From NCBI RefSeq assembly GCF_900108185.1, contig NZ_FNVA01000001.1:744001-808000 (forward strand): DNA of 64,000 bases, written 5' to 3'. Numbering within the stretch: position 1 is the stretch's first letter; every line of letters starts with the position of its first letter. The notes under the pieces were generated by a model. The model was not told where the DNA came from. It worked only from the letters and a program-made list of their open reading frames with translations, and did not search any database. The position numbers and the translations under genes are program-made. This DNA is from Bryocella elongata (lineage in GTDB: Bacteria; Acidobacteriota; Terriglobia; Terriglobales; Acidobacteriaceae). Shown here in pieces: positions 6,665-51,212 of the stretch.

Positions 6665-6680
6665 TGGCACGGTTCTTGCA
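6665..6680 (+). promoter_or_regulatory. Sigma-54 promoter of the kinase/activator/flgB operon
   Basis: TGGCACG (6665-6671), four bases, TTGCA (6676-6680) match the -24/-12 consensus exactly. The expected transcription start is near 6691. The promoter drives the gene pair that itself encodes a sigma-54 activator, which implies positive feedback, and the genes from flgB to fliJ follow without a break. Confidence 0.88.
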
Positions 6681-6694
6681 TGAGGAATAGGCAG

Positions 6695-8008
6695 ATGCTG
6701 CCTACTTCTCATCTTCGGCCAATCGATCCTCCGCCAGCGGGTATTGTCCTGGGCTCGGTTGATGTCTCGGGAGCTCCTGCGGCCTCGGCGAACTTTCTTG
6801 CCGACGCTTTCAGCGAATTCATCGCGACCAGCTCGCGTCTTGAGCACTCCTATAGGACCCTTCAGACGGAGGTCGTTTCTCTAAGCCATGAGCTCGTCGA
6901 GCGCAACGCACTCCTCGAAACCAGCCTGGATGAGAACCGTCGCATGCGCCAGGCGCTTGAGCAGATGATCCAGGCGATGCCTTGCGGCGTGCTGGTAATC
7001 GATGCGGCGGGTCGTGTGAACTTCGTCAATGGGGAGTGCCGCACGTTGCTGGCGCTGCCTGACACGCTAAATGCTGCGGTCCTCACTGCACGCATCGCGG
7101 AGCTCATTCCCGCCGCCATCTACTGCCACACCACGACGAGCGTCGCTGAGTTCGAGTGCGAGATCAGCCTGATGATCGATGGGCGCGAGCGCTGGATGCA
7201 GGTTCGCCGCCGCGTTCTTAAGGCTGCTGACTCCTGCCTCATCGCACAGTTCATCCTTCTTCTGCGCGACATCAGCGCGATCAAGCTCGCTGAGCAGAGC
7301 CGCGATGCCGGCCGCCAGGCTCTCGCACAGGCTGAGATCAGCACGGTACTCGCTCATGAGATTAGGAATCCATTAGCCAGCCTTGAGCTCTTCGCTGAGC
7401 TCATCGAGCAGGATGAGACTGGGCGCAACAGCTGGATCTCCAATCTTCGCGCTGGCATCCGCTCGCTCTCAGGAACCGTGAACAACGTCCTGGCGTTCTA
7501 CGGACGAGCCGGATGGCGCGAGGTTCCCGTCTCTCTGCCGCAGCTTCTGCAGGAGGCTGCAGACTTCATGCGTCCCCAGGCAGAGCAATCGCGTGTCAAC
7601 ATCCACGTCGCCGTGAAAGCTGATGAAGCCTCCACACAAGGGAACGTCGATGCGCTGCGTCAGGTGCTGCTCAATCTCCTCACCAACGCGATTCGCCACA
7701 CTCCCGAGGGTGGCAGCGTGACCTTGTCGCTGCGTACTGTTGCCGGCGAGCCCAGCGTGGCGAACCCATTTGCCCATCGCGTGGCTGTTCTTGAGTGCGT
7801 TGACACAGGAACTGGCATCGCAGCTGAGCACTTCGGGCAGATCTTCGATCCCGGCTTCAGCGGCAGATGTTCATCGGGTCTTGGGCTCGCGGTGTGCCGC
7901 CAGGTCGCCGAGCGCCACAACGGTTCAATTCGCGCAACCAATATTCCCAACGCTGGTGCCTGCTTCACGTTGGAGCTGCCGCTCATTCCGATGAAGGAGG
8001 CCGCATGA
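6695..8008 (+). CDS. FleS/FlrB-like sensor histidine kinase of the flagellar sigma-54 system
   Basis: A 437-residue soluble kinase: N-terminal coiled segment, a PAS domain (AMPCGVLVIDAAGRVNFVN), HisKA with phospho-acceptor H221 in AHEIRNPLA, and a full ATPase core (N-box LLNLLTNAIRHT, VDTGTGI, SGLGLAVC). No membrane segment is seen, as in FleS and FlrB. Its stop overlaps the start of the downstream activator, its expected partner. The start is uncertain: ATG 6680 overlaps the promoter -12 element, so ATG 6695 was chosen, only about four bases after the predicted transcription start. FlgS is another name used for this class. Confidence 0.87.
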   Translation: MLPTSHLRPIDPPPAGIVLGSVDVSGAPAASANFLADAFSEFIATSSRLEHSYRTLQTEVVSLSHELVERNALLETSLDENRRMRQALEQMIQAMPCGVLVIDAAGRVNFVNGECRTLLALPDTLNAAVLTARIAELIPAAIYCHTTTSVAEFECEISLMIDGRERWMQVRRRVLKAADSCLIAQFILLLRDISAIKLAEQSRDAGRQALAQAEISTVLAHEIRNPLASLELFAELIEQDETGRNSWISNLRAGIRSLSGTVNNVLAFYGRAGWREVPVSLPQLLQEAADFMRPQAEQSRVNIHVAVKADEASTQGNVDALRQVLLNLLTNAIRHTPEGGSVTLSLRTVAGEPSVANPFAHRVAVLECVDTGTGIAAEHFGQIFDPGFSGRCSSGLGLAVCRQVAERHNGSIRATNIPNAGACFTLELPLIPMKEAA

Positions 8009-9393
8009 GCGAAACCACTCCGCACGTGCTGATCGTTGACGACGATCCTGGTATTCGTATGGCGCTCAACGCGAACTTCCTGCGCCAGGGCTGGACTTCC
8101 GAGACGGCTTCGGGGGTTCGCGAGGCCCTTCGCCTGATCGATCGGAAGAGCTATGACCTGGTCATCAGCGACATGCGCATGCCGGACGGCGATGGCATGG
8201 AGGTCCTGGAGACGGTTCGCGCGACGGCTCCGAATACGGCTGTGATTCTTCTTACCGCCCACGGCAGCGTCTCGCAGGCTGTCGAGTCCATGCGCCATGG
8301 TGCCTTCGACTATCTCACCAAGCCGGTCTCCTTCGACCAGCTCCGCTCGATGGCGGACCGCGTCCTCAAGAGCGTGAAGCAGCAGGAGACGCCAGTCGCC
8401 GAGCCCACGGTCGCTGCATCGGTGCCGCAGGCGACACGCAACATCGTGGGTACGTCGCCCGCATTGCTGGCCGCGTTGGAGCGTGCCCGTGCCGCAGCTT
8501 CCACCGGTGCGGATGTTCTGGTCGAGGCGGAGAGTGGCGCCGGCAAGGAACTTCTCGCTCGCTACATTCACGATATGAGCGATCGGGCGAACAAGCCCTT
8601 CGTTGCGGTGAACTGCGCTGCTGTGCCGGATCACCTTATCGAGAGCGAGCTCTTCGGGCACACCAAGGGGGCCTTCACAGGAGCGACGGGAATGCGCACC
8701 GGCAAGTTTGAGCTCGCCAACGGCGGCACGCTGCTGCTGGATGAGATTGGCGAGATGCCGCTGCACCTGCAGCCCAAGCTGCTGCGCGTGCTACAGGAGC
8801 GCGAGTTCGAGCGCCTCGGAGACACGCGCACGCTGCATGTCGACATTCGGATCATCGCGACGACAAACGCAGGACTCGCCGCCATGGTCGAGCGCGGCAG
8901 CTTCCGCCACGACCTGTACTACCGTCTGAACGTGATTCCGTTGTCTCTGCCACCGCTGCGGGAGCGCATGCAGGACCTGCCTGCACTGGCGCAGCACTTC
9001 GCTCTACGCTTCGGCGCAGAGAACCGCTGTGCGACCCCGCAGCTTGCGCCGAGCTTCCTGGCGGCGATCGCTCGCCACTCCTGGCCCGGCAACGTGCGCG
9101 AGTTCGGCAACTTCATGCGGCGGGTGCTTTCCCTGCATCAGGGTGTGGTCATCGACGAAGCTTGCTTCGATCGCGAGTTTCGTCCCGTTCTGAAACAGGA
9201 ATCTACGAATCCACAAGGCCAAATGCCTGTGGCTGGCACACGAATTGCTGATCTGGAGCGTATGCACCTCGAGCGCACCTTGGTTCTAACCGGCGGCAAT
9301 CGCACCCACGCCGCGGAGATGCTCGGCGTCAGCCTGCGCACGGTGCGCAACAAGATCAAGGAATACGGACTTCCGCCTAGGAGCTACGCATGA
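8005..9393 (+). CDS. NtrC-family flagellar activator, FleR/FlrC-like
   Basis: A 462-residue response regulator with intact receiver (D56 in SDMRMPDGDG, TKPV lysine), AAA+ domain with GAFTGA loop and Walker B LLLDEIGE, and a C-terminal Fis-type helix-turn-helix (NRTHAAEMLGVSLRTVRNKI). The Walker A reads AESGAGKE, with the first Gly of GESGTGKE replaced by Ala. It should activate sigma-54 promoters after phosphorylation by the kinase just upstream. Start at 8005 was chosen over the longer frame because GAAGGAGG precedes it and it overlaps the kinase stop as ATGA. Its own stop overlaps flgB. Confidence 0.9.
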   Translation: MSETTPHVLIVDDDPGIRMALNANFLRQGWTSETASGVREALRLIDRKSYDLVISDMRMPDGDGMEVLETVRATAPNTAVILLTAHGSVSQAVESMRHGAFDYLTKPVSFDQLRSMADRVLKSVKQQETPVAEPTVAASVPQATRNIVGTSPALLAALERARAAASTGADVLVEAESGAGKELLARYIHDMSDRANKPFVAVNCAAVPDHLIESELFGHTKGAFTGATGMRTGKFELANGGTLLLDEIGEMPLHLQPKLLRVLQEREFERLGDTRTLHVDIRIIATTNAGLAAMVERGSFRHDLYYRLNVIPLSLPPLRERMQDLPALAQHFALRFGAENRCATPQLAPSFLAAIARHSWPGNVREFGNFMRRVLSLHQGVVIDEACFDREFRPVLKQESTNPQGQMPVAGTRIADLERMHLERTLVLTGGNRTHAAEMLGVSLRTVRNKIKEYGLPPRSYA

Positions 9394-25607: not shown

Positions 25608-25679
25608 GCAGGACGGCAACAAGGGACCCAGAGAAATACGAGAACGCCGATGAGTCGCGAAATGAAGGAGTGCCACAAC

Positions 25680-26579
25680 ATGACCGCAGCCGAGATTGCA
25701 TACCGCTCCACCGCAACCGTAGATGAGTTTGATGAGCGCAATGAGCTCGTCATGAAGGAACTACCACAGGTGTATTACATCGCGGCTCGCATCCGTGAGC
25801 GTCTTCCACAGCACGTGGAGATGGAGGACCTGGTCAACGCCGGTGTGTTGGGTCTCATCGAAGCGACCCGTAACTTCGACTCGGCCAAGAATGCTGGCTT
25901 CAGCACCTTTGCCAAGTTCCGCATCCGGGGAGCGATCCTGGACAGCCTGCGCAAGCTCGACTGGGGCTCGCGTACGCTGCGCCGCAAGGGCCGCGCCATC
26001 TCGGCGTCGATCGCCTCCCTGGCATCGAAGCTCAGCCGGCAGCCGACACACGAAGAGATTGCCGCCGACCTCAACATGGAGCTCTCCGAGCTGCAGAACA
26101 CCATGACCGAGCTCGATGGGCTGTATCTGGTGGGTCAGCAGTCGGACAGCGATGGTGATTCGTCGGTCTCGTACGATCTCATCGAGTCCGCCCCCAGCCG
26201 CGGAGGCGACAATCCCTTCGAGCTCTGCCTCGAAGGCGAGATGAAGGAGCAGCTGGCGAAGGCGATCGGACAGCTTTCAGAGCGCGAGCAGCTGATTCTT
26301 TCGCTCTACTACGAGGGCGAAGCCACGATGAAGGAGATCGCCGAGATCGTCGGCGTGGTCGTCTCCCGCGTTTCGCAGATCCACTCTGGTGCTCTGATGA
26401 AGCTCCGGGCTGCGATGCAGCACCTGAACGAAAAGCCGGAGGCAAAGAAGGAAGTTGAACGTCCGGCTGCAGTTCGTGCGACTGAGAAGTCGATGCCACG
26501 CGCCATCAAGACCCGTCCCGCGATGCCTGCAAGCTGGGCCCGTGCTACTGCCGCCGCTTCCGCCCGGAGGCTCGCGTGA
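25680..26579 (+). CDS. fliA: Flagellar sigma factor sigma-28 (FliA)
   Basis: A 299-residue sigma factor of the FliA/WhiG type. Region 2 shows LPQHVEMEDLVNAGVLGLIEATRNFD and FSTFAKFRIRGAILDSLRKLDW; region 3 has PTHEEIAADLNM; region 4 ends SEREQLILSLYYEGEATMKEIAEIVGVVVSRVSQIHSGALMKLR. An extra basic, Ala/Pro-rich tail of about 55 residues follows region 4. ATG at 25680 was chosen for AAGGAG nine bases upstream, over ATG 25650. It should read the TAAA-N15-GCCGATA sites in this window and be held by FlgM. It overlaps fliM. Confidence 0.93.
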   Translation: MTAAEIAYRSTATVDEFDERNELVMKELPQVYYIAARIRERLPQHVEMEDLVNAGVLGLIEATRNFDSAKNAGFSTFAKFRIRGAILDSLRKLDWGSRTLRRKGRAISASIASLASKLSRQPTHEEIAADLNMELSELQNTMTELDGLYLVGQQSDSDGDSSVSYDLIESAPSRGGDNPFELCLEGEMKEQLAKAIGQLSEREQLILSLYYEGEATMKEIAEIVGVVVSRVSQIHSGALMKLRAAMQHLNEKPEAKKEVERPAAVRATEKSMPRAIKTRPAMPASWARATAAASARRLA

Positions 26580-28322: not shown

Positions 28323-29189
28323 ATGAATCTTGTGGAATCGCTCTCGAAGTCGTCGTGGATCGCGGGTTTCAAAACCGTGCCGTGCAATCGCGACAAGTGC
28401 CGCCGCTGGCTGACGCAGCGTGCGCTCGATACTCGTCACGTTGGAATCACCCTCGAGGGCAAGTGGTACTGCAGCTATCGCTGCGTGGCTTCGGCGGTGG
28501 AGGAACTGATTATCCGGCTCCTGGGCTCTTCGAGCCGCCGAAACGGAAACTCGCCGCGAATGCCCTTAGGCCTGATGCTCGTGAGTCGCGGCTATATCAC
28601 CGAGATGGACCTCAAGCGGGCCAATGAGGAGTTGCGCCGCAAGGGCGGGGAACTCGGCGAGATCCTGGTGCAGATGGGCGTCATCTCCGAGCGCCAGATT
28701 CTTTCCACGCGCGCTTCGCAGTGGGGCTGCCCGCTGTTTACGCCGACGGCTGAGTCTCAGCACGTCTCGGTGAAGCTGCCGCCGACGTTGCTCCGTCGCT
28801 CAGGCATGGTGCCGCTGCATTACTCGGCGACCGGAAAGAAGCTGCTCATGGGCTTCGTCGACTCAATCGAGTACGGTGCTCTCTATGCCATGGAGCAGGT
28901 CCTCGGCTGCAAGACGCATCCCTGCTTCATCACCCGTGCGGAGCTTGATGCTCTTATGGCTCTGCACGAGGAACGTGCGGCGACCCAGGAGATCTGCTTC
29001 GACGACCTTGTCGGCACGACCGAGATGACGCGCGTGCTTTGCAACCAGGGCATCGCCATCAGCGCGGACCAGCTTTCGATCACACGCTCGCGCGGTTATG
29101 TGTGGGGTCGATTCACGGCAGCCAATCGGTCGCTCGACGTTCTCATCCGCGTCGGTGAGTCGGCTCCGGCTCTGCTGGCTATCGCGTAA
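28323..29189 (+). CDS. Cys-motif MshEN-domain protein, possible c-di-GMP receptor
   Basis: A 288-residue protein. Residues C21, C26, C50 and C54 form a CxxxxC...CxxxC pattern that could bind a metal. From about 79 to 185 lies an MshEN (type II secretion ATPase N-terminal) fold with two tandem copies of LGxxLxxxGxIxExxL (PLGLMLVSRGYITEMDL and ELGEILVQMGVISERQI), the pattern that binds c-di-GMP in MshE. The first Arg of each RLG motif is replaced (Pro, Glu). The final 80 residues are not recognised. No ATPase domain follows. Placement after fliM and fliY suggests a rotor- or export-related sensor. ATG 28323 follows GGAG. Confidence 0.6.
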   Translation: MNLVESLSKSSWIAGFKTVPCNRDKCRRWLTQRALDTRHVGITLEGKWYCSYRCVASAVEELIIRLLGSSSRRNGNSPRMPLGLMLVSRGYITEMDLKRANEELRRKGGELGEILVQMGVISERQILSTRASQWGCPLFTPTAESQHVSVKLPPTLLRRSGMVPLHYSATGKKLLMGFVDSIEYGALYAMEQVLGCKTHPCFITRAELDALMALHEERAATQEICFDDLVGTTEMTRVLCNQGIAISADQLSITRSRGYVWGRFTAANRSLDVLIRVGESAPALLAIA

Positions 29190-29301
29190 GCCGCGACGCT
29201 GCTCTCATGCTGCTCTAACCGCTATCTCCGTGAGTGAGAGCGAATCACGAAAACACTGGATATTCAGCACTGGTGCAACCTGCAACGCCTCTCAACTAAA
29301 T

Positions 29302-29317
29302 TGGCACGGCGATTGCA
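29302..29317 (+). promoter_or_regulatory. Sigma-54 promoter of flgF-flgG-flgA-flgHI-flgJ
   Basis: TGGCACG (29302-29308), four bases, TTGCA (29313-29317) is a perfect -24/-12 element. Transcription should begin near 29328, giving flgF a leader of about 13 bases that still contains AGGAAC. Confidence 0.9.
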
Positions 29318-29340
29318 TGTAGCTCCAGCGAGGAACAAAG

Positions 29341-30084
29341 ATGAACAGCGGACTCTATGCAGCGGCTACAGCACTGGTCTCCCGTACGGATGCACTGGAT
29401 GCGGTCGCGAACAACCTGGCGAATCAAAGCACGCCTGGCTTCCGCGCACGGCACAGCACCTTTCGCGCGACGCTCGCCCAGCATGGCAATCCGAATCTCT
29501 CCATGTTGAATGAGGATGCCAACGACTATGGTGTGCTCGGCGGCACGCGCCTCGATACGACGCAGGGTTCGTTGACGAAGACCGGCAACCCGCTGGACAT
29601 CGCGATCGAAGGGCAGGGTTACTTCCAGGTGCAGACCGCACAGGGCACTGTTTACACACGAGCAGGCAACTTTTCAGTTTCGGCGCAGGGGCAGTTGGTG
29701 ACGGCGAACGGGGACCCCGTCCTGGGTGAGGGCGGGGCTCCAATTTCGATCGTCGGTCAGCCGGTTTCGATCAGCTCGGACGGCACGATCTCAGTGAACG
29801 GAGCGACGGCCGGCAAGCTTGGGGTTGTCGACTTTCCTGCCAACGTGGACCTCGAGAGCATGGGGAACAACTATCTCAAGGCGCCCGCGAATACTACGCC
29901 TGCAGCAACGACCGCAACGCTCCGCCAGGGCATGATCGAAGGCTCGAACGTCAACCCCATCTCGGGTGTCGTTGAGCTCATCGATGCACAGCGCTCGGTC
30001 GAAGAGATGCGCCGCATGCTTTCTCTCTTCAGCAACGAAATGGACAAGACGGCCTCGCAGGACCTTCCGCACGTAGGTCAGTAA
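29341..30084 (+). CDS. flgF: Flagellar proximal rod protein FlgF
   Basis: A 247-residue rod protein with the N-terminal motif AVANNLANQSTPGFRARHSTF and the C-terminal EGSNVNPISGVVELIDAQRSVEEMRRM. Its length and the lack of extra domains fit FlgF, with FlgG encoded next. It forms the proximal rod above FlgB and FlgC. Confidence 0.9.
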   Translation: MNSGLYAAATALVSRTDALDAVANNLANQSTPGFRARHSTFRATLAQHGNPNLSMLNEDANDYGVLGGTRLDTTQGSLTKTGNPLDIAIEGQGYFQVQTAQGTVYTRAGNFSVSAQGQLVTANGDPVLGEGGAPISIVGQPVSISSDGTISVNGATAGKLGVVDFPANVDLESMGNNYLKAPANTTPAATTATLRQGMIEGSNVNPISGVVELIDAQRSVEEMRRMLSLFSNEMDKTASQDLPHVGQ

Positions 30085-30120
30085 CTCGGCGAATCAAAGC
30101 AGAACTTCCAAGGAGATCCA

Positions 30121-30912
30121 ATGTTTCGCGCACTCTACACAGCGGCAAGCGGCATGACGGCCCAGCAGCTCAATCTCGATAACATCGCTAACAATCTGTC
30201 GAACGCTTCGACCGCTGGATTCCAGTCGCGTACTGTGCAGTTCTCTGACCTGCTCTACCAGAACGAGGTGATGCCGGGCGCCGCGTCCACGCAGCAGACA
30301 ACCAACGCCACCGGTCTGCAGATCGGTCTCGGAACCCGGCCTGGTGCGACGGAGATTACGCAGACGCAGGGCGCCCTGACGCAGACCGGCAACCAGTTGG
30401 ATCTCGCCATCCAGGGCTCTGGGTTCTTTCAGATCCTGCTTCCTAACGGACAGACGGGTTACACGCGGTCGGGTTCATTCCAACAGGATTCGACAGGCAA
30501 CCTCGTCACGGCGCAGGGGTATCAGCTGCAGCCGACGATCACGATTCCCGCGGGAGCAACCAGCGTGACCATCGGCAGCGATGGAACGGTGAGCGTGACG
30601 CAGTCGGGCCAGAATGCGGCTTCGCAGGTGGGAACGATCCAGACAGCGCTCTTCGTCAACCCCGGTGGACTGAACTCCGTGGGTAACAACATCTATCTTC
30701 CGACCACGGCCTCGGGTGATCCCGTAGTTGGAACGCCCGGCGGCACGGAGGGCCTCGGCGCGCTGCAGCAGGGCATGCTCGAGCAGTCTAACGTCAGCAC
30801 CGTCGATGAGTTCGTACAGATGATCCTCGCGCAGCGCGGCTATGAGTCGAACTCGCGTGTGATCAAGGCTGGCGACGAGATGCTGCAGCAGTTGAACCAG
30901 CTGGCGCAGTAA
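30121..30912 (+). CDS. flgG: Flagellar distal rod protein FlgG
   Basis: A 263-residue protein opening MFRALYTAASGMTAQQLNLDN, the classic FlgG start, with ANNLSNASTAGFQSRTVQFSDLLY and a C-terminus LEQSNVSTVDEFVQMILAQRGYESNSRVIK. It builds the distal rod through the P and L rings. AAGGAGA precedes the ATG. Confidence 0.96.
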   Translation: MFRALYTAASGMTAQQLNLDNIANNLSNASTAGFQSRTVQFSDLLYQNEVMPGAASTQQTTNATGLQIGLGTRPGATEITQTQGALTQTGNQLDLAIQGSGFFQILLPNGQTGYTRSGSFQQDSTGNLVTAQGYQLQPTITIPAGATSVTIGSDGTVSVTQSGQNAASQVGTIQTALFVNPGGLNSVGNNIYLPTTASGDPVVGTPGGTEGLGALQQGMLEQSNVSTVDEFVQMILAQRGYESNSRVIKAGDEMLQQLNQLAQ

Positions 30913-30928
30913 GACTAGGGAGAAGAAG

Positions 30929-31552
30929 ATGACCATGAAGACCACAATGCTTGCGATGCTTGGAGGGCTGACCGTATCAGCCTCTGCGGGGGCGCAGATG
31001 CATCGCACGCATGTCTTCAATCTCTCGGCCGGGCAGGTTACGCACGTCATCGAGGTCCGCCTTGCAGAGCAGGGTGTGGCAATCAACGGCGCGAGGATCG
31101 AGATGCTCAGCCGCGTGGTCTCCTCCTCTGAGCAGCCTGCGCTTCATGTGACTTCGATCCTCTCTCTTGATCACACCCGGCCCTCGCGCAAGGATCTTGC
31201 CGCGGGCATGGTGCCTCGGTTTGCAGTCCGGGTGGCTTGTGACTCCTCCCGTGATTGCCTTCCGTTTTATGCAGTGGTTTCCATGCCGGCTGGTCTGAAG
31301 GTGACAGCGACGCCGGTGCCGAAACCGCAGGTCATCGCTAAGACTCAGCACGTTGAGGCGGCGCTTCCGGTCGTGAAGGCCGGCAGCAACGCCACCATGA
31401 TCATGAACAGCGGCGACGCTCACATCCAGATGACTGTGAAGTGCCTCGAGGACGGTGTCGAAGGGCAGACGATCCGCGTGAGCAACCCGCTGAACCACAA
31501 CACACTCGAGGCCCAGGTTGTCCGTAGCGGCCTGGTGAAGGGATCGTTCTAA
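30929..31552 (+). CDS. flgA: P-ring assembly chaperone FlgA
   Basis: A 207-residue periplasmic protein with a signal peptide (MLAMLGGLTVSASAGAQ) and a C-terminal SAF-like domain (VKAGSNATMIMNSGDAHIQMTVKCLEDG, GQTIRVSNPLNHNTLEAQVV), the FlgA hallmark. It should help FlgI polymerise. It lies between flgG and flgH, overlapping the latter by one base. The N-terminal half is weakly conserved. Confidence 0.82.
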   Translation: MTMKTTMLAMLGGLTVSASAGAQMHRTHVFNLSAGQVTHVIEVRLAEQGVAINGARIEMLSRVVSSSEQPALHVTSILSLDHTRPSRKDLAAGMVPRFAVRVACDSSRDCLPFYAVVSMPAGLKVTATPVPKPQVIAKTQHVEAALPVVKAGSNATMIMNSGDAHIQMTVKCLEDGVEGQTIRVSNPLNHNTLEAQVVRSGLVKGSF

Positions 31553-32262
31553 TGCGCAGCGCCCTCAAAACGATATTGATGCTGGGCTGCGTGGGACTTG
31601 TTTCCATCAACGCCCACGCCTTTGGCAAGGAGAAGAAGCCCAAGCCTACAGCCGAGGACTTGCGTGCACAGTACGTTGCGCGTTTCTCGGGGAAGAACGT
31701 TGCCGTCGCCGATGAGCACACGCTGGGCAGTCTGTGGAGCTCGACTGGCCCGATGACGGACGTCTCGACCGACTACAAAGCAACCAGGTTGAATGACACC
31801 ATCACCATTGTGGTTTCGGTGCAGACGACGGCTGCGCAGTCCGGTTCGGTCAACACCTCGCGCGCGTTTGCGCACAACTCCGCCATCACGGGAATCATGG
31901 GGCAGACGCCCTCTGTACTCAACCCGCTGCTGGCCGCCAACTCGACAACGACGCTCAAGGGCTCCGGTCAGACGGCCTCGAGCACTGCGTTCCAGACGAG
32001 TCTCACCGGCCAGGTCATCGCGGTCCTTCCCAATGGCAACCTCATCGTCGAGGCTCACCGCGAGATCTTCATGAACAACCAGCATGAGGATGTGATGGTT
32101 CGCGGCCTGCTTCGCCCTGGCGATATTGGCCCTCAGAACGCCGTTCCTTCCTCTGCCCTCTCGAACCTCGAGATCGAGATGAAGGGCAAGGGCATCATCT
32201 CCGATGGCACGAAGCCACTCAACCCGATCACGAAGGCAATCTTATGGCTTTTCGGCTTCTAA
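31552..32262 (+). CDS. flgH: Flagellar L-ring protein FlgH
   Basis: A 236-residue exported protein. Family motifs are LNDTITIVVSVQTTA, FQTSLTGQVIAVLPNGNLIVEAHREI and MVRGLLRPGDIGPQNAVPSSALSNLEIEMKGKG. FlgH is normally a lipoprotein; here C13 sits in LMLGC, a poor lipobox, while AHA at residues 21-23 could be a signal peptidase I site, so lipidation is uncertain. The outer-membrane ring implies a diderm cell. Confidence 0.92.
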   Translation: MRSALKTILMLGCVGLVSINAHAFGKEKKPKPTAEDLRAQYVARFSGKNVAVADEHTLGSLWSSTGPMTDVSTDYKATRLNDTITIVVSVQTTAAQSGSVNTSRAFAHNSAITGIMGQTPSVLNPLLAANSTTTLKGSGQTASSTAFQTSLTGQVIAVLPNGNLIVEAHREIFMNNQHEDVMVRGLLRPGDIGPQNAVPSSALSNLEIEMKGKGIISDGTKPLNPITKAILWLFGF

Positions 32263-32282
32263 CCCGGATCGTCCCTGAGACG

Positions 32283-33422
32283 ATGATTCGTTCGGCGCGC
32301 CGACGTTCGAGCTATATATTGGCCATCGCCACCGCGATGTTGCTCGCGATGCTCGCCGCTCGAGTTGCCAACGGACAGCAAGAGCATCGGCTCACGGTGC
32401 GTGACATCACCAGCATCGAAGGCGTTCGTGAGAACCAACTCGTCGGTTACGGCATCGTGACCGGTCTTCGCGGTACGGGCGATTCGCAGCAGACCTTCTT
32501 CACCGTGCAGACACTGGCCAACACCCTGCAGCGCATGGGCGTGCAGATCACGCCTGCGGTCGTCACCGTAAAGAATGTTGCGGCTGTCTTCGTAACTGCC
32601 TCGCTTCCGCCGTTCTCTCGGCCTGGTATGGATCTCGATGTCACCGTCTCCTCAGTCGGAGATGCTAAGAGCCTCAGTGGCGGCGTGCTTCTGCTCACCG
32701 CCCTCCGCGCAGCCGATGGCAAGGTGTATGCCGTGGCGCAGGGATCGCTGGTCCTGGGTGGCTATACGGAAGGGAACTCGAAGAACAGTAAGACGGTCAA
32801 CCACCCGACCACCGGCCGCATCTCGAACGGCGCAACGGTGGAGCGTGATGCGTCGATCGACCTCACCAAGTTGCCCAAGCTCTCGTTCCTGCTGCTGAAC
32901 CCGGACTTTACGACGGCCCGCAATGTCGAGACCTCGATCAATAAGGAGTTCGGCAAGCCTGTGGCGCGCGCAATCGACAGCCGCCGTGTTGAGGTGAACG
33001 TCGCCGACACCGGGGATGGGTCGGTTCCGGATCTGATCTCGCGCGTGCAATCGATGAAGATCGATGTGGAAGAACCTGCCCACGTCGTTGTGAACGAACG
33101 TACCGGAACCATCGTGATGGGCGGAGATGTGCGGCTGCAGCCGGTCTCCGTCATCCATGGTTCGCTGACGATTGACGTCGAGACGACGCCCATCATCTCG
33201 CAGCCGGCGCCCTTCTCGAACGGCACGACCACCGCAACAACCCAAACCAAGCTCAACGTGACCGATACTCCTGCCCAGTCGATTCAGCTCAAGGCCGGCG
33301 CCAGCGTCGAGGAACTGATCAAAGGACTCCACGCAATCGGTGCGACCTCGCACGACATCATCGCGATCCTGCAGGCCATCAAGGCGGCCGGAGGTCTCGA
33401 CGCCAACCTGGAGGTCATCTAA
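32283..33422 (+). CDS. flgI: Flagellar P-ring protein FlgI
   Basis: A 379-residue periplasmic ring protein with a signal peptide (LAIATAMLLAMLAARVANG) followed by RVKDITSIEG-like RDITSIEGVRENQLVGYGIVTGLRGTGD. The C-terminus ends SVEELIKGLHAIGATSHDIIAILQAIKAAGGLDANLEVI in parts, as usual. ATG 32283 was chosen because it gives a standard signal peptide; ATG 32244, inside flgH, would add 13 residues and has a slightly better upstream GAAGGC. The stop overlaps flgJ as TAATG. Confidence 0.93.
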   Translation: MIRSARRRSSYILAIATAMLLAMLAARVANGQQEHRLTVRDITSIEGVRENQLVGYGIVTGLRGTGDSQQTFFTVQTLANTLQRMGVQITPAVVTVKNVAAVFVTASLPPFSRPGMDLDVTVSSVGDAKSLSGGVLLLTALRAADGKVYAVAQGSLVLGGYTEGNSKNSKTVNHPTTGRISNGATVERDASIDLTKLPKLSFLLLNPDFTTARNVETSINKEFGKPVARAIDSRRVEVNVADTGDGSVPDLISRVQSMKIDVEEPAHVVVNERTGTIVMGGDVRLQPVSVIHGSLTIDVETTPIISQPAPFSNGTTTATTQTKLNVTDTPAQSIQLKAGASVEELIKGLHAIGATSHDIIAILQAIKAAGGLDANLEVI

Positions 33423-33838
33423 TGCAAGTCTCAGGGGCCAGCCTCGCCTCAGCCGCAGCTTCCACGCCGCTGAGTAGTTCCGCGGACAACCTCGTCCGGC
33501 AAGCCAACCAGCTTGCCTCGGGGGAGGGAAAAGACAGCAAGGAAAAGATCCACAAGGCGGGCCAGGATTTCGAATCCCTGCTGCTGGGGCAGTGGCTCCA
33601 GCAGGCCGAGGACAGCTTCGGCAAGATGCCCGGAAGCGATGACGATGAAGATGGCGATGCGGGTAGCTCGTCGATGCAAGGCATTGCAATGCAATCACTT
33701 GGGCAGGCCATGGCAGCCCAGGGAGGCATCGGAATCTCACGCATGATCACGAGTTCGCTGGAGCGGCAGGCCGATTCCCACCCGGCCGTGTCGCAAAAAG
33801 AATCAGAGGGAGTCGCACCAACCCCCGCAGGTAACTGA
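33422..33838 (+). CDS. flgJ: Rod-binding protein FlgJ, short form
   Basis: A 138-residue protein with the rod-capping domain (HKAGQDFESLLLGQWLQQAEDSFGK and a GIGISRMI segment near residue 105). The C-terminal muramidase domain found in enteric FlgJ is missing, as in many bacteria where a separate enzyme opens the peptidoglycan. An acidic Asp/Glu insertion is present around residues 73-82. It ends the flgF operon. Confidence 0.85.
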   Translation: MQVSGASLASAAASTPLSSSADNLVRQANQLASGEGKDSKEKIHKAGQDFESLLLGQWLQQAEDSFGKMPGSDDDEDGDAGSSSMQGIAMQSLGQAMAAQGGIGISRMITSSLERQADSHPAVSQKESEGVAPTPAGN

Positions 33839-33873
33839 AACCAGCTAGTTACCAAGAAGTGCCGGGAGATTAC

Positions 33874-33900
33874 TGAACGGCTCCTAATCTGTGCCGATAG
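33874..33900 (+). promoter_or_regulatory. Sigma-28 promoter of flgM
   Basis: TGAA (33874-33877), 15 bases, GCCGATAG (33893-33900) fit the FliA consensus TAAA-N15-GCCGATAA. The transcript should start around 33907. The -10 element lies in the loop of the inverted repeat described next. Confidence 0.72.
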
Positions 33901-33921
33901 AACGTACCGTCAGATTAGGAG
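33881..33921. repeat. Perfect 11-bp inverted repeat over the flgM promoter and ribosome site
   Basis: CTCCTAATCTG (33881-33891) is the exact reverse complement of CAGATTAGGAG (33911-33921). The 19-base loop contains the sigma-28 -10 element and the predicted transcription start. The right arm contains the flgM Shine-Dalgarno TAGGAGG (33916-33922). RNA read through from upstream could fold and mask that site; RNA starting at the local promoter lacks the left arm. Confidence 0.85.
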
Positions 33922-33929
33922 GACAAAAA

Positions 33930-34211
33930 ATGAAGGTTGACCTCACGAACGGAGTCTCTAACCAGAACCCCGTTGAACTCAACAGCCGACCAGCCACCAC
34001 GTCCAGCTCCGCCGCGGCGCCGGCTGAAACCCAGGATCGTACGACGCTGAGCACCTCGAGCTCTGCAGTTTCCACTCTGGTGAGCCAGGCAATGGCTTCG
34101 CCCGAGGTACGGCAGGACAAGGTAAGCGCTTTGAAGCAGCAGATCGCTTCGGGTAACTACAACATCAACCCCTCGAAGATTGCCTCCGGCATCCTCAGCG
34201 AGGGCATGTAA
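33930..34211 (+). CDS. flgM: Anti-sigma-28 factor FlgM
   Basis: A 93-residue protein. The C-terminal half holds the FlgM signature DKVSALKQQIASGNYNINPSKIA; the N-terminal half is Ser/Thr/Ala-rich and likely unfolded, as needed for export. It binds FliA until the hook is finished. The ATG at 33930 follows TAGGAGG with seven bases between; the open frame continues upstream to 33891 but that part overlaps the promoter. Confidence 0.93.
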   Translation: MKVDLTNGVSNQNPVELNSRPATTSSSAAAPAETQDRTTLSTSSSAVSTLVSQAMASPEVRQDKVSALKQQIASGNYNINPSKIASGILSEGM

Positions 34212-34212
34212 A

Positions 34213-34244
34213 CCTCCACCGACGCAGCGACGGGCCGGTGGAGG
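34213..34244 (+). terminator. Stem-loop between flgM and flgN
   Basis: CCTCCACCG (34213-34221) pairs perfectly with CGGTGGAGG (34236-34244) around a 14-base loop, starting one base after the flgM stop. No T run follows. The right arm runs into the GGAGGAG ribosome site of flgN, so it may modulate translation rather than end transcription. Confidence 0.5.
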
Positions 34245-34259
34245 AGGAGACTCTGATCC

Positions 34260-34742
34260 ATGACAGGCCCAGGTACGGAGACGCCACGCGCCTTCGATTC
34301 CGCCCCGCAGGGCGTTGAACCGTCTGCTGCTCACTTCCTCGCCTGTGTGCAGGCGTTGACCACCGAGATACGCATCGCTCTCGATGCGATCGCTGCCAAT
34401 GACCTGCTTACTCTCACGGACAGCATCTGCCGCCAGGAAGACCTCTGCTTCCAACTGGATCGGATGCCGCGTCCCGATGATGCTCTCGCGATGAGCGGAA
34501 GCACGGCCCGGGCCTGGGCCAAACTCTGGGACGATGTCGAGTCCCAGATTGAAACAGCGGTCGAAGACCTCCGCCAGGTCAGCGCAGGATACGCTCTTGT
34601 TTTACAGACTTCCAGCCGATCTATCAGCCTGCTGACGTCGCTCTGCCGTGGTTTCGCGGGAGACGTAGCGCATGCATCCCCCGATCGTTCACCCAACCAC
34701 GCTGGCAGCCTAACCCGGCGCACGTGGTCCTGCGAGGCCTAA
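34260..34742 (+). CDS. flgN: FlgN-like chaperone for FlgK and FlgL
   Basis: A 160-residue mostly helical protein between flgM and flgK, the standard flgN position. The pattern SAAHFLACVQALTTEIRIALDAIAANDLLTLTD and YALVLQTSSRSISLLTSLCRGF fits the FlgN coiled-coil fold. It should deliver the hook-filament junction proteins to the export gate. Similarity is weak, so the call leans on context. Confidence 0.7.
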   Translation: MTGPGTETPRAFDSAPQGVEPSAAHFLACVQALTTEIRIALDAIAANDLLTLTDSICRQEDLCFQLDRMPRPDDALAMSGSTARAWAKLWDDVESQIETAVEDLRQVSAGYALVLQTSSRSISLLTSLCRGFAGDVAHASPDRSPNHAGSLTRRTWSCEA

Positions 34743-34745
34743 TTC

Positions 34746-36119
34746 ATGTCGCTCACAAGCTCTCTGAACGTAGCCACCGGTTCGCTGATGGCGGCCGATG
34801 GCGCTCTTCAGATCGTTAACAACAATATTGCTAACGCCAACACGCCCGGCTACACGCGCCAGACCGCGCAGATGGAAGAGGGCCCGACTTCAGTCGTCGA
34901 CGGCCAGACACTGGGCGGCGGGGTCAACTTTGACGGCTACCAGAGCGTGAGAGACGAGCTGCTGCAGTCCCAGGTGGAGCAGCAGACGCAGGCACAATCC
35001 AGCGCGGACGCGCAATCGACCAGCCTGACGCAGATCGAGCAAGTCTTCACCACCTCGACCAGCGACATCGGCACGGAGATGTCAGGGTTGTTCTCCAGCA
35101 TTTCGAGCCTGTCTACAGCTCCGACGAACTCCTCGGACCGGCAGGCGGTGCTGTCAGCTGCGCAAAACCTGGCGACATCGTTCAACACCGCTTCGCAACA
35201 GTTGACCTCGATCCAGGGCGGCCTCAACACGCAGGTCACGCAGGACGTAAGCCAGATCAACCAGCTGACCCAGCAGATCGCTGCATTGAATCCGCAGATC
35301 GAGGCCGAGAACAACCATGGACAGGATGCGGGCACGCTGCAGGACCAGCAGGATCAGCTTGTGCTGCAGCTGTCCAAGCTCGCCAATGTCAGCTCTACCA
35401 AGTCCTCGAATGGAACCACATTGACGATCGGGAATGCCGTCGTCGTGTCGGGTGCGAAGAGCTACGCTCTGAGCGCCTCGACCGGGACCGGCGGTAACGC
35501 TGTCATCAAGGACTCCAATGGCACGGATGTGACTTCGACGATCACCGGGGGCGACCTCGGCGGCACATTGACGATGCAGCAGGCGACCATCCCCGCAGTT
35601 CTCGGTCAGCTTGACTCTTTGGCGAACGAGGTGGGACAGGCCTTCAACGCAGCGCAGGCCGAGGGCACCGATCAAAACGGCAATACCGGGACGGCGATGT
35701 TCAGTCTGCCATCGACGGTTTCGGGTTCAGCCGCGGGCATCAGTCTCGCGCTCACCAGCACTACCCAAATTGCGGCCAGCTCTACCGGAGCAAGCGGAAG
35801 CAACGGCAACCTCGCCAACTTCACGGCCATCCAGACGAACGCGCTCGCTTCGGGATCGACGCCTGGCAATACCTATGCCAACCTGGTTTACCAGGTTGGG
35901 CAGCTGTCGGCGAATGCGACAACAGCATCAAGCGCGGCGCAGTCCAGTCTGCTTTCGCTCAACACCCAGCTCAGCTCGGTAAGCGGTGTCTCCATCGACC
36001 AGGAGACGACCTCCCTCATGCAGTACCAACAGCAGTATGAAGCTGCAGCAAGGGTGGTATCGACGATACAGTCCTTGTTTCAGGTCACGATCTCGATGGG
36101 AACTGCCTCGGCGGCGTAA
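34746..36119 (+). CDS. flgK: Hook-filament junction protein FlgK
   Basis: A 457-residue protein with the N-terminal motif VNNNIANANTPGYTRQTAQM and a C-terminus containing SVSGVSIDQETTSLMQYQQQYEAAARVVSTIQ, both diagnostic for FlgK (HAP1). Coiled coil regions flank a Ser/Thr/Gly-rich core. It starts four bases after the FlgN gene and is followed by flgL. Confidence 0.95.
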   Translation: MSLTSSLNVATGSLMAADGALQIVNNNIANANTPGYTRQTAQMEEGPTSVVDGQTLGGGVNFDGYQSVRDELLQSQVEQQTQAQSSADAQSTSLTQIEQVFTTSTSDIGTEMSGLFSSISSLSTAPTNSSDRQAVLSAAQNLATSFNTASQQLTSIQGGLNTQVTQDVSQINQLTQQIAALNPQIEAENNHGQDAGTLQDQQDQLVLQLSKLANVSSTKSSNGTTLTIGNAVVVSGAKSYALSASTGTGGNAVIKDSNGTDVTSTITGGDLGGTLTMQQATIPAVLGQLDSLANEVGQAFNAAQAEGTDQNGNTGTAMFSLPSTVSGSAAGISLALTSTTQIAASSTGASGSNGNLANFTAIQTNALASGSTPGNTYANLVYQVGQLSANATTASSAAQSSLLSLNTQLSSVSGVSIDQETTSLMQYQQQYEAAARVVSTIQSLFQVTISMGTASAA

Positions 36120-36190
36120 GCGTAGACCCGGCGACGCGTGGGGGCCCTGGCTGGGGCTTATCGCCGACACGAAGGAAGAAGGAGAAGACG

Positions 36191-37396
36191 ATGCGAGTGA
36201 CGAGCATGATTCCGCAGGTGCAGTACGACATCCAGCAGAGCGCAAGCTCGTTGGCGACAGCTGAGCAGCAGGTCTCGACCGGCCTGCGCGTGCAACAGCT
36301 GTCGGATGATCCCTCTGCCTCTGCGAACATGGTCCGCTCCCTCATGGAGTCGGCCAACGTCGATCAGTACACGAAGAACGTGTCCTCCCTGCAGAGCAGC
36401 ATGCAGACCGCGAGCTCGGCGCTGAGCCAGGTCGTCACGGCGATGAACAGTGCCATCAGCTCTGGCACAGCCGGTGCGAGCGATTCGTTGGCCGCCAGTA
36501 ACCGCGACTCGATCGCCTCGCAGGTGGAGGGTCTGTTGCAGACGGTGGTTTCGTCGGCCAACACCTCGTATCAGGGCTCATACCTCTTCGGTGGTTCGGC
36601 AAGCTCCACTCCGCCATTCGTCCCGGCTTCGCTGTCGTATAGCTCCGCGAACGGTACCGCTTCCACTCCGTTAACGACGAGCACAGCTCTCACCGCGGGT
36701 TCTGAGACGACCATCAGCGATGCATCGACAGGTGAGAGTTTCACCTACACCGCGAAGAGCGGCGACACGATCGCGACGTTGCAACAGGCCGTCGCGGGTG
36801 CAGTGTCCGCAGGCACGCTATCAGCAGGTACGACGGCGACCATCAATGCAAATGGCCAGCTTTCAATTGGCCAGGGAAGCTCCGGATCCGGAGTCGCGGT
36901 GTCCACCAACGACTCCGCGCTTGGTTCGATGAGCGCAGACTCCGGTACCCAGGTCGCGGACTCCTACGCCTATGTGGGGAACTCCGATGTGAACCACGTC
37001 AGCGTTGGAAGTTCGCTTTCAGTCGCCTCGAATGTCCCGGGGAGCACACTGTTCGGCAATGGAAGCAACACGATTGCCTCACTCACAAATCTGATCAAGG
37101 CGTTGAAGGGTGGCGACACGACCGCCATCTCCACCGCGACCCAGGCTGTATCTTCGGCGCTGACCAGCTTCGATACACTTCGCGTCCCGCTGGATGAAGG
37201 CGTGAGCGAGCTAAGTTCGCAGGAGACCTATCTGAGCAGCGAGACCATCACGCTTACGACCCAGCAGACTGCGCTCACCGGAATCAGCACAGCCGAAGCG
37301 GCAACGAATCTGGCACAGGCAGAGCTGGATAATAACGCGGTTCTGGCCGCGGCAGCCAAGGCTCTACCGCAGACTCTCCTGCAGTATCTGCAGTAG
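36191..37396 (+). CDS. flgL: Hook-filament junction protein FlgL
   Basis: A 401-residue flagellin-like protein opening MRVTSMIPQVQYDIQQSASSL with QQVSTGLRVQQLSDDPSAS, and a coiled C-terminus. Between about residues 168 and 253 it carries a module closely similar to one in the flagellin of this window, sharing AVSAGTLSAGTTAT and NDS-LG-M. It is the second junction protein (HAP3). AAGGAG precedes the ATG. Confidence 0.93.
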   Translation: MRVTSMIPQVQYDIQQSASSLATAEQQVSTGLRVQQLSDDPSASANMVRSLMESANVDQYTKNVSSLQSSMQTASSALSQVVTAMNSAISSGTAGASDSLAASNRDSIASQVEGLLQTVVSSANTSYQGSYLFGGSASSTPPFVPASLSYSSANGTASTPLTTSTALTAGSETTISDASTGESFTYTAKSGDTIATLQQAVAGAVSAGTLSAGTTATINANGQLSIGQGSSGSGVAVSTNDSALGSMSADSGTQVADSYAYVGNSDVNHVSVGSSLSVASNVPGSTLFGNGSNTIASLTNLIKALKGGDTTAISTATQAVSSALTSFDTLRVPLDEGVSELSSQETYLSSETITLTTQQTALTGISTAEAATNLAQAELDNNAVLAAAAKALPQTLLQYLQ

Positions 37397-37421
37397 GACA
37401 CGGCTCACATCGGTAAATCAT

Positions 37422-37470
37422 GGGGCGGCGGATGACTGCGAGTTTTGCAGCTTCCGCCGCTCCCACTTTT
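37422..37470 (+). terminator. Terminator after flgL
   Basis: GGGGCGGCGGA (37422-37432) pairs with TCCGCCGCTCCC (37453-37464), with one bulged base; inside, CTGC (37436-37439) pairs with GCAG (37447-37450). ACTTTT follows. It should insulate flagellin from flgM-flgL readthrough. Confidence 0.75.
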
Positions 37471-37517
37471 GGGGTATGACCCTCCAAAACAAATCATTGG
37501 CATATGAAGACTTGCTG

Positions 37518-37544
37518 TAAACACTGTCGCGCAGCAGCCGATAT
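37518..37544 (+). promoter_or_regulatory. Sigma-28 promoter of flagellin
   Basis: TAAA (37518-37521), exactly 15 bases, GCCGATAT (37537-37544) is an almost perfect FliA promoter. It gives the flagellin mRNA a leader of about 97 bases. Confidence 0.92.
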
Positions 37545-37647
37545 GTTCCCTGTCCAAGACGGCCTTCTCCCTCAGACTGGGGCGCAATCAGCGACCTCCA
37601 CATATAAGAGTGAGGCGCCGGCTGGAACTACAAGGAGACGATTCCCA

Positions 37648-38793
37648 ATGGCACTCACAGTCCTGAACAACATCGCGTCGTTGACCGCGGAGAACGCGCT
37701 CTCGAACACGCAGATGAACCTCCAGAAGACGCTCACCCAGCTGTCGACTGGTCTCAAGATCAACTCTGGTTCGGACGATCCGGCCGGCCTCTCCATCGCC
37801 AATGGCCTCCAGGCCAACATTGCTGCCCTCACCCAGTCGCAGCAGAACGCGTCCAACGGAATTGGCATGCTGCAGACCGCCGACGGCGCTCTGTCGCAGG
37901 TCACCACGCTGCTGAACCGCGCTACCACCCTGGCGACGGAAGCTTCTACCAGCAACGTAACCAGCACCCAGGCCACCGCTCTGAACACGGAGTTCGCGTC
38001 GATCCTGTCCGAAGTCAACCAGATCGGCAACTCGACGAACTTCAACGGTCAGAACGTGTTCAGCTCGAACACCCCCACCAGCTTCACCTCGACCCAGGCC
38101 TCGCTGGCGACGTCAACGCAGCTGACCAGCGGCTCGGTTACGACCATCACTGACTCCGCCACTGGCGGTACGTTCGTGTTCAAGGCCGGCGCAAGCAGCA
38201 CCGTGCAGGACCTTCAGAATGCGGTGACCGCTGCTGTCTCGGCTGGCACCCTGTCGGCTGGCACCACGGCTACCCTGACGGGCGCTGGCGCACTGAAGAT
38301 CGGCCCGAACACCGGCACGACCGGTATTTCGGTCTCGTCCAACGACTCGGTTCTCGGCCCGATGGAAGCGGCTGCAGGCACGAGCAACACCAACACCGTG
38401 TACATCGGCGACGGCACCACGACTGGCGCTGCGAACACCACCATCACCACGACCATCAACTCGCTCTCGGCCACCTCGCTCGGCCTCAACAGCGACAACC
38501 TCAGCAGCACGGCAGCTGCGCAGACCGCGCTGGCTGACGTGACGGCTGCCATCAACACGGTTGCAGCTCAGCGTGGCACCATCGGCGCTTCGGTCAACCG
38601 CCTCACGGCCGCTTCCTCGGTTATGAGCAGCCAGGTGCAGAACCTGACCTCCGCCGAGAACTCGGTTCAGAACGCAGACGTAGGCAAGACCGTTGCGAAC
38701 ATGACCCAGTACAACATTCTGCAGTCCACCGGTATGGCTGCTCTGCAGCAGTCCAACCAGGCACAGCAGGCTGTCCTGAAGCTGGTCCAGTAA
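37648..38793 (+). CDS. fliC: Flagellin
   Basis: A 381-residue flagellin. The N-terminal D0/D1 part starts MALTVLNNIASLTAENALS with LSTGLKINSGSDDPAGLSIA, and the C-terminus ends with VANMTQYNILQSTGMAALQQSNQ. A central domain (about residues 160-245) has a counterpart in FlgL. ATG 37648 was selected since AAGGAGA lies nine bases before it; the frame upstream to 37504 overlaps the promoter and is not coding. Only one flagellin is seen in the window. Confidence 0.97.
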   Translation: MALTVLNNIASLTAENALSNTQMNLQKTLTQLSTGLKINSGSDDPAGLSIANGLQANIAALTQSQQNASNGIGMLQTADGALSQVTTLLNRATTLATEASTSNVTSTQATALNTEFASILSEVNQIGNSTNFNGQNVFSSNTPTSFTSTQASLATSTQLTSGSVTTITDSATGGTFVFKAGASSTVQDLQNAVTAAVSAGTLSAGTTATLTGAGALKIGPNTGTTGISVSSNDSVLGPMEAAAGTSNTNTVYIGDGTTTGAANTTITTTINSLSATSLGLNSDNLSSTAAAQTALADVTAAINTVAAQRGTIGASVNRLTAASSVMSSQVQNLTSAENSVQNADVGKTVANMTQYNILQSTGMAALQQSNQAQQAVLKLVQ

Positions 38794-49163: not shown

Positions 49164-51212
49164 CTATGCGAGATGCACGAGCGTGATCACAATGTCGATG
49201 AGCTTGATGCCGACGAACGGCACGATGATGCCGCCGAGGCCGTACACGAGCAGATTCTTCTTGAGCAGCGTCGCAGCAGGGAGCGCCTTATAAGCAACGC
49301 CGCGCAGAGCCAGCGGAATCAACGCGACGATCACAAGCGCGTTGAAGATCACGGCGGAGAGAATCGCGGACTCGGGCGAATGCAGATGCATGATGTTCAA
49401 CGCATTCAGCACAGGGAAGACACCCGCAAACATCGCCGGGATAATGGCGAAGTACTTTGCCACATCGTTGGAGATGGAGAAGGTCGTCAACGCTCCGCGT
49501 GTCATCAGCAGCTGCTTGCCGATAGCCACAATCTCGATGAGCTTGGTGGGGTTGGAATCGAGGTCGACCATGTTTCCTGCTTCTTTCGCAGCCTGGGTGC
49601 CCGAGTTCATCGCAACGCCTACATCGGCCTGCGCGAGCGCGGGCGCGTCGTTGGTGCCGTCCCCGGTCATCGCAACCAGCTTGCCCTGCGCTTGTTCGCG
49701 CCGGATCAGATCCATCTTGTCCTTTGGCTTGGCCTCAGCGAGAAAATCATCCACGCCGGCTTCGCGTGCAATGGCTGCAGCCGTCAGAGGGTTGTCGCCG
49801 GTGATCATGATGGTGCGAATGCCCATCGCGCGTAGCTGCTCAAAGCGTTCGCGCATGCCGCCCTTGACGATGTCCTTGAGATGGATGACCCCAAGCGCAC
49901 GATTGTTTTCGGCAACAACAAGCGGTGTGCCGCCAGAGCGAGCCACTTCCTCTACCGATTCGCGGACCTCCTTCGGCATGGGGTTGCCGAGCTTCTCCAG
50001 GTAGTTGGCGATCGCATCGACGGCGCCCTTGCGAATGATGCGGCCATCGATGTCGATGCCGCTCATGCGCGTCATGGCGCTGAAAGGAATGAACTGCGCA
50101 TTCAGCGACGCGAGCTCGCGCCCTCGCAGATCGTATTTCTCCTTTGCGAGGACCACGATGGAGCGACCCTCCGGCGTCTCGTCCGGAAGAGACGAGAGTT
50201 GTGCGGCGTCCGCAAGCTGCGCACTCGACACTCCCGGGGCAGGGAGAAATGCCGAGGCTTGACGATTTCCGATCGTGATGGTTCCCGTCTTATCGAGCAG
50301 CAGGGTGTCGACGTCACCGGCCGCTTCCACGGCCCGGCCGGAAGTCGCCAGTACATTGTGCTGTACCAGGCGATCCATGCCTGCGATTCCGATAGCCGAC
50401 AGCAGCGCACCGATCGTCGTAGGAATGAGGCAGACGAGCAGCGAGATCAGGACAAAGATCGTCTGTGGCGCACCGGAGTAGATCGCGAACGGTTGCAGGG
50501 TCACGACGGCGAGAAGGAAGATAATCGTCAATCCCGACAGCAGGATATTGAGCGCGATCTCGTTCGGTGTCTTCTGCCGCTCTGCGCCTTCCACCAGTGC
50601 GATCATGCGATCGAGGAAGGTCTCGCCGGGGTTCGATGTGATGCGCACGACGATCACATCGGAGAGCACGCGTGTACCGCCCGTAACTGCGGATCGGTCA
50701 CCGCCTGCTTCACGAATCACCGGCGCTGATTCGCCTGTGATCGCGGACTCATCGACGGATGCGACCCCTTCAATGACTTCGCCATCGCCGGGGATCATCT
50801 CCCCGGCGACGACGCGCACGATGTCACCGACTCGCAGTTTGGAGCTCGGCACCTGCTCGGTGACATCATCTTTCACGATGCGAACTGCCATCGTCTCGGA
50901 CTTGGCTTTGCGCAACGCATCGGCCTGGGCCTTGCCTCGGCCCTCGGCCATGGCCTCCGCGAAGTTTGCAAAGAGGACTGTGAACCAGAGCCACAATGTG
51001 ATCTGCAGGTCGAAGCCGAAGTGGCCGATCTTGCGGACCCCATCGACGACGAGCAGGATCGTGGTCAACACACTCCCGATCTCGACGACGAACATCACGG
51101 GGTTGCGCATCATCACAATGGGGCTGAGCTTGCGGACCGCATCGAAGCTGGCGCGACGAAGGATCTCGCCGTCGAAGAGGCTACGCGTTTTTCTGTTTGA
51201 ACTTGTATTCAT
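49164..51212 (-). CDS. kdpB: Potassium-transporting P-type ATPase subunit KdpB
   Basis: A 682-residue P-type ATPase. TGES is at [11 protein letters not shown], the phosphorylated Asp in [13 protein letters not shown], the nucleotide site near FSAMTRMSG, and the hinge [18 protein letters not shown]. Membrane segments are as expected for KdpB. It hydrolyses ATP to power potassium uptake through KdpA. Confidence 0.97.

Follow-up and report, generated by a model that had tools for sequence, protein, structure and literature searches.

A candidate promoter-nested RNA switch at the flgM ribosome-binding site of Bryocella elongata

Results

The flgM locus and its inverted repeat

We analyzed a 64,000-nucleotide (nt) stretch of the genome of Bryocella elongata (contig NZ_FNVA01000001.1, positions 744,001 to 808,000; hereafter the window, whose coordinates are used throughout), focusing on a perfect inverted repeat just upstream of flgM, which encodes the anti-sigma-28 factor. 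The elements of the flgM locus, the flgF-like operon with its promoter-like site, and fliA all lie on the forward strand. The flgM reading frame (33930..34211, 93 amino acids, ATG at 33930) matches Pfam family PF04316 (FlgM, E 2.8e-16) and is preceded by a Shine-Dalgarno sequence (SD), AGGAGG, at 33917-33922. Further upstream are a sigma-28 -35-like TGAA (33874-33877) and, 15 nt from it, a -10 element GCCGATA (33893-33899), from which the usual sigma-28 promoter geometry, which we take to hold here, predicts a transcription start at about 33907. The arms of the repeat, CTCCTAATCTG (33881-33891) and CAGATTAGGAG (33911-33921), are complementary at 11 of 11 nt across a 19-nt loop. The left arm lies inside the promoter spacer and is predicted to be missing from RNA initiated at this promoter, while the right arm overlies AGGAG, five of the six SD bases. 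The order along the DNA is thus 5' arm, -10 element within the hairpin loop, predicted start between the arms, and SD-covering arm. A first-pass annotation, made from the sequence alone, had described both the perfect complementarity of these arms and their nesting around the predicted start, and on both points the coordinates bear it out.

The repeat by itself is only mildly unusual, since the window contains two perfect 11-bp inverted repeats whose loop is 3-40 nt long, where 50 first-order Markov sequences lead one to expect 0.7; what counts is its placement. The second such repeat lies at 50820-50830 / 50857-50867. When the 17 nt before GCCGATA were shuffled, a perfect 11-bp match to the leader arose in 24 of 400,000 trials. 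The arm 11-mer has no copies beyond these two arms in the whole genome (5.67 Mb, 98.88% complete), and the next-closest copies within the window carry 2 mismatches. An Rfam scan of 33700-34100 returned a single match, below the threshold of its family and outside the repeat.

In folding predictions, access to the SD varies with where the RNA begins. Opening the SD is predicted to cost 2.2-3.2 kcal/mol in RNA beginning at 33907, compared with 8.3-9.5 kcal/mol in RNA beginning at 33839, 33860 or 33878. The fold of 33860-33960 compared with shuffled sequences gave a z of -1.71. Occlusion of the SD by its own upstream segment reached p 0.005, the minimum attainable with 200 shuffles per locus, both in the window's own genome (G000; other genomes are G-numbered and loci L-numbered) and in one further genome, G218.

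A compensated repeat in a second genome

Among 28 genomes of the genus that were searched, FlgI was found in 14 and a flgJ-like gene followed by flgM in 13 of these, so that the order flgI-flgJ-flgM (flgJ by position) occurs in the window and 12 other genomes. In G218 (locus L034) the arms TCCTGATGGC and GCCATCAGGA pair perfectly over 10 bp and keep the register seen in the window: the left arm ends 1 nt before GCCGATA, the right arm ends in AGGA, and the loop is one base shorter. Six of the 10 pairs are identical to those in the window and four are changed on both sides (window to G218: G-C to C-G, U-A to G-C, C-G to G-C and A-U to G-C), with pairing kept in all four. The G218 fold matches the prediction (z -2.44), and a 10-bp match arose in 48 of 400,000 trials with a shuffled G218 spacer. 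G218 is the only one of the 12 other genus loci at which pairing is kept by compensation.

Across the genus, the shuffle test of SD occlusion gave p <=0.05 at five of 13 loci (G000, G218, G219, G220 and G216) against 0.65 expected. Scored in the same register as the window, G213 reached 7.5 of 10, its longest run being four pairs. In G220 (L040) the -35 region CTAAAGTCT pairs with the leader sequence AGACTTTGG over 9 bp including a G-U, an arrangement that is also promoter-nested but in a different register.

Searches and tests across the family

A search of 398 genomes of the family with the pattern TCCT-N5-9-GCCGATA-N8-20-AGGAG gave 62 matches (one site counted twice), in which pairing extended inward by 0, 1, 2 or 6 steps in 41, 13, 6 and 2 cases, respectively. 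The two six-step extensions are the G000 and G218 flgM sites; all others extend by two steps at most.

Tests for a general tendency gave mixed results. Duplex energies between left and right segments showed no significant excess (permutation p 0.13; 34 of 41 loci, seven having been dropped for a missing -10 match). Comparison of each locus's own left segment with swapped segments gave mean differences in SD opening of 1.30 versus 0.91 kcal/mol (p 0.0048; 107 of 116 loci). With 100 shuffles, SD occlusion reached p <=0.05 at 11 of 107 loci and uniformity was not rejected (Kolmogorov-Smirnov p 0.32); with 200 shuffles, it did so at 16 of 144 family loci against 7.2 expected, the test dropping 12 of the 156 loci (G071, G100a, G013, G143, G115, G132, G064, G166, G282a, G002, G036 and G032). 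Among the 26 genomes common to the flgM and flgN sets, flgM loci reached p <=0.05 in five (G000 being among those tested).

In a register-specific test (145 of 156 loci, with G000 not counted because its score came from a wrong register, and G218 having helped to set the register), three loci (G218, G035 and G117) scored at least 8.5 against 0.11 expected from swaps, or two loci without G218. Five loci scored at least 7 (1.74 expected) and 10 scored at least 6 (8.1 expected). The G035 and G117 matches may be due to chance: the G117 stem is not common to four other loci of its genus (G066, two of G141, and G159; two G189 loci were left out of this comparison), and G035 is the sole genome of its genus in the set. 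Two further elements recur near flgM promoters in the family. In genus g29, CTGCC-N9-GGCAG overlaps the -10 box upstream of flgM at L016, L023 and, with one G-U, L030; and by eye an AATTGCA-like element recurs just downstream of the -10 box before flgM in genera g7, g46, g50 and g64.

The two predicted promoters

The sigma-28 promoter motif is widespread. GCCGAT occurs 15-60 nt upstream of flgM at 133 of 156 family loci against 1.3 in shuffled sequence, a count that leans upward because the choice of start codon at 115 of the 156 loci gave extra weight to a GCCGA close by; among the 41 loci whose start codons were chosen without the bonus, 34 have a -10 match. T[ACG]AA is present in the -35 zone at 109 of the 133 loci with GCCGAT. 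The gene for sigma-28 itself, fliA, lies at 25650..26579 (TIGR02479, 225 bits, above the cut-off; sigma-70 regions 2, 3 and 4).

The first-pass annotation had also assumed a sigma-54 promoter before flgF, and an exact TGGCAC-N5-TTGC, TGGCACGGCGATTGC, is indeed found at 29302..29316, before the ATG at 29341 of the flgF-like operon. This operon (29341..33838) comprises closely spaced reading frames named flgF, flgG, flgA, flgH, flgI and flgJ and is the presumed source of readthrough RNA. Pfam confirms FlgA, FlgH and FlgI; flgF and flgG were named by look or position, and flgJ, like the flgN frame, has no Pfam match and owes its name to position or look. No terminator-like site was found on the forward strand in 29000-38000. 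Together with the promoter motif, this makes readthrough from the sigma-54 operon into flgM a plausible prediction.

Near its left end, the window carries genes for two sigma-54 activators and a histidine kinase. Exact sigma-54 sites are also present at 6665-6679, just before the histidine kinase reading frame at 6680, and at 9234-9248, near the end of an activator frame (7867-9393).

Several observations concern flgM itself. In both hairpin genomes an in-frame upstream start codon overlaps the left arm (GTG 33891 in the window, ATG in G218 at L034). An N-terminally extended FlgM starting at GTG 33891 was considered and rejected, as no SD was seen and the extensions are dissimilar by eye. Seven genomes of the genus (G174, G207, G209, G213, G214, G217 and G218) have two PF04316 matches each, and a second FlgM-like gene may exist there. 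In G064 (L079, 2582-3366 of the reverse complement), the gene immediately after flgI and a flgJ-like gene is flgN-like (so named from its position), and flgM does not occur where it usually lies, next to the flgJ-like gene.

Discussion

A proposed switch set by promoter choice

We propose that the repeat acts as a lineage-restricted RNA switch like that of phage T4 gene e, here nested around a sigma-28 promoter and hiding the SD in one RNA isoform only; judged from sequence and folding models, we give this reading a probability of roughly 0.6. Known from T4, such a mechanism is in our analysis the most economical reading of the locus. We infer that readthrough RNA from the sigma-54 flgF-flgJ operon would carry both arms, fold in the cell into the 11-bp hairpin and hide the flgM SD, while RNA from the local sigma-28 promoter would start within the loop, lack the 5' arm and leave the SD open. 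Readthrough flgM would then be translated poorly and sigma-28-derived flgM well, and the bulk of FlgM would be made once FliA has become active, acting as a feedback brake. The in-silico basis for this proposal consists of the arms, the promoter motifs, the lack of a forward terminator-like site, the opening energies and the compensated pairing in G218. The left arm begins 42 nt beyond the flgJ stop, so ribosomes translating flgJ should not melt the hairpin. Overall, what the first-pass annotation observed is confirmed and its interpretation, which was of the same kind, is partly supported.

Several results weigh against this reading. The annotation's claim that long RNA hides the SD and short RNA does not agrees with the predictions for long RNAs starting at 33839 to 33878, but in RNA starting at 33700 or 33780 the predicted opening cost is only 4.2-6.9 kcal/mol, because the included flgJ sequence competes; ribosomes on flgJ might block that competition. 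The whole fold of 33870-33960 is no more stable than its shuffles (z -0.38). An uninterrupted stem in the same register is absent from the other 11 of the 13 genus flgM loci. Among these is G174, the sister of G218 in the FlgI tree (support 100/100), which by eye retains only CCTAA/TTGGG (five pairs) and whose long RNA is predicted to hide the SD no better (-1.2 kcal/mol). G217 and G219, closer to the window than G218 (FlgI identity 68% and 65%, against 55% for G218), fold differently. A control at flgN starts, for which the start points were drawn at random, reached p <=0.05 in 3 of 31 cases against 1.6 expected. We therefore do not claim a general family-wide effect at flgM, as the excess there is not clearly above this control and the numbers are too few to separate the two.

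The comparison with relatives thus cuts both ways. The annotation had looked to compensatory changes in relatives, and these are present in G218 (4 of 4 changed pairs), while the stem is missing at the 11 other loci, including that of G218's sister. It had also counted loss of the repeat in close relatives without compensation as evidence against the switch; the 11 loci go some way toward this, but these relatives are far apart, and absence among them is therefore no test among close relatives. No relatives nearer to the window were found. A search by named genomes gave only two distant relatives, and an order-level search mostly returned members of the family again.

Alternative explanations

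It is unlikely, though far from negligible, that the repeat is a chance or neutral feature, in which a free spacer came by accident to complement the region of the SD, G218 being a second coincidence. Such repeats are expected 0.7 times per 64 kb, the uninterrupted stem is lacking at 11 of 13 genus loci, and the family-wide excess does not clearly exceed the flgN control, all of which would fit. Coincidence does not sit easily with two perfect repeats in the same register within one genus when no other pattern match extends beyond two steps, nor with the probability of the G218 repeat (1.2e-4 per locus, or ~0.02 across the 155 other loci).

Two explanations seem very unlikely to us, to a similar degree. 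A mutational origin, in which a template switch at a near-palindrome rewrote one arm as a copy of the other and so made the repeat perfect without selection, would suit the two stems (11 pairs in G000, 10 in G218), which are free of mismatches and G-U pairs to an extent beyond what occlusion alone needs. Template switching also produces compensated changes. Yet it would have to have happened twice at one place, sparing promoter and SD each time, and no sign of it is seen among the other pattern matches. The hairpin might instead be a cleavage site, or a protector of the 3' end, of the flgF-flgJ message, with SD occlusion a side effect. A stable intercistronic hairpin so soon after the flgJ stop is what such an element would look like, but this leaves unexplained the placement shared by both genomes, with the right arm over the SD and the left one in the gap between the -35 and -10 elements.

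Least probable is a DNA operator at which a dimeric or looping repressor would bind both arms around the -10 box, repressor binding having been the first-pass annotation's own alternative: although the perfect dyad does frame that element, the 11-mer is unique to these arms genome-wide, and G218 keeps the symmetry while changing 4 of 10 positions and, by 1 nt, the arm spacing, unlike a protein-read site, so that the compensated changes and the absence of other arm copies favor RNA base pairing.

Relation to known systems

In phage T4, gene e (lysozyme), and also soc, 49 and I-TevI, are described as having long early RNAs in which a helix covers the SD or start codon, and late promoters just upstream of the ribosome site whose RNAs lack the 5' strand and are translated well (PMC3014915). 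In that account the structure is demonstrated, an effect of 100-fold is reported, and five relatives listed as having gene e show no evident structure (PMC3014915). The B. elongata locus resembles gene e in having a predicted start between the arms, a long RNA in which the SD should be hidden, a short RNA in which it should be open, and a patchy occurrence. It differs in that structure and effect are predictions here, the gene is cellular and encodes an anti-sigma factor, and its promoter is of the sigma-28 type.

Control of flgM at the ribosome site has bacterial precedents. In Campylobacter jejuni, flgM is co-transcribed with the RpoN-dependent flgI and flgJ, also has its own FliA promoter, and is blocked at its ribosome site by the trans-acting small RNA CJnc230/FlmE; timing with two flgM promoters is there termed still unclear (PMC11187230). 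The window shares the flgI-flgJ-flgM order, the FliA promoter motif and, by prediction, control of flgM that acts after transcription, on its ribosome site. C. jejuni differs in using a small RNA in trans, and a promoter-nested hairpin is not among the features described for it in the parts of that source available to us. In Escherichia coli and Salmonella, flgM likewise has early and FliA promoters (PMC4183435, PMC5809477), and its translation is a control point: OmrA and OmrB repress E. coli flgM (PMC7549644), and FlgN is reviewed as promoting FlgM translation (PMC8036289). There, however, flgA lies upstream under FlhDC and control is exerted via small RNAs. In Salmonella, FlgM restrains FliA until completion of the hook-basal body (PMC5809477). 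A search of the flgM literature, within the portions of the sources available, found no hairpin of the kind proposed here, and searching for the mechanism in general gave no paper.

Implications for flagellar timing

A broader idea, which we regard as doubtful, is that sigma-28 spacers before flgM repeatedly evolve anti-SD arms (in G000, G218 and perhaps G035 and G117), which would silence flgM RNA from the upstream operon and make FlgM a brake that follows FliA rather than a preloaded lock.

For B. elongata itself, if the proposed switch exists, promoter choice alone would set translation of an anti-sigma factor, with no extra regulator, and a device of the kind that times phage lysis would operate inside a bacterial flagellar assembly checkpoint. 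This would also suggest a purpose for the two promoters of flgM. If the switch works, early FlgM would be scarce and FlgM, made only once FliA is active, would act as feedback on it, unlike the order of events in Salmonella, where FlgM is a lock set in advance.
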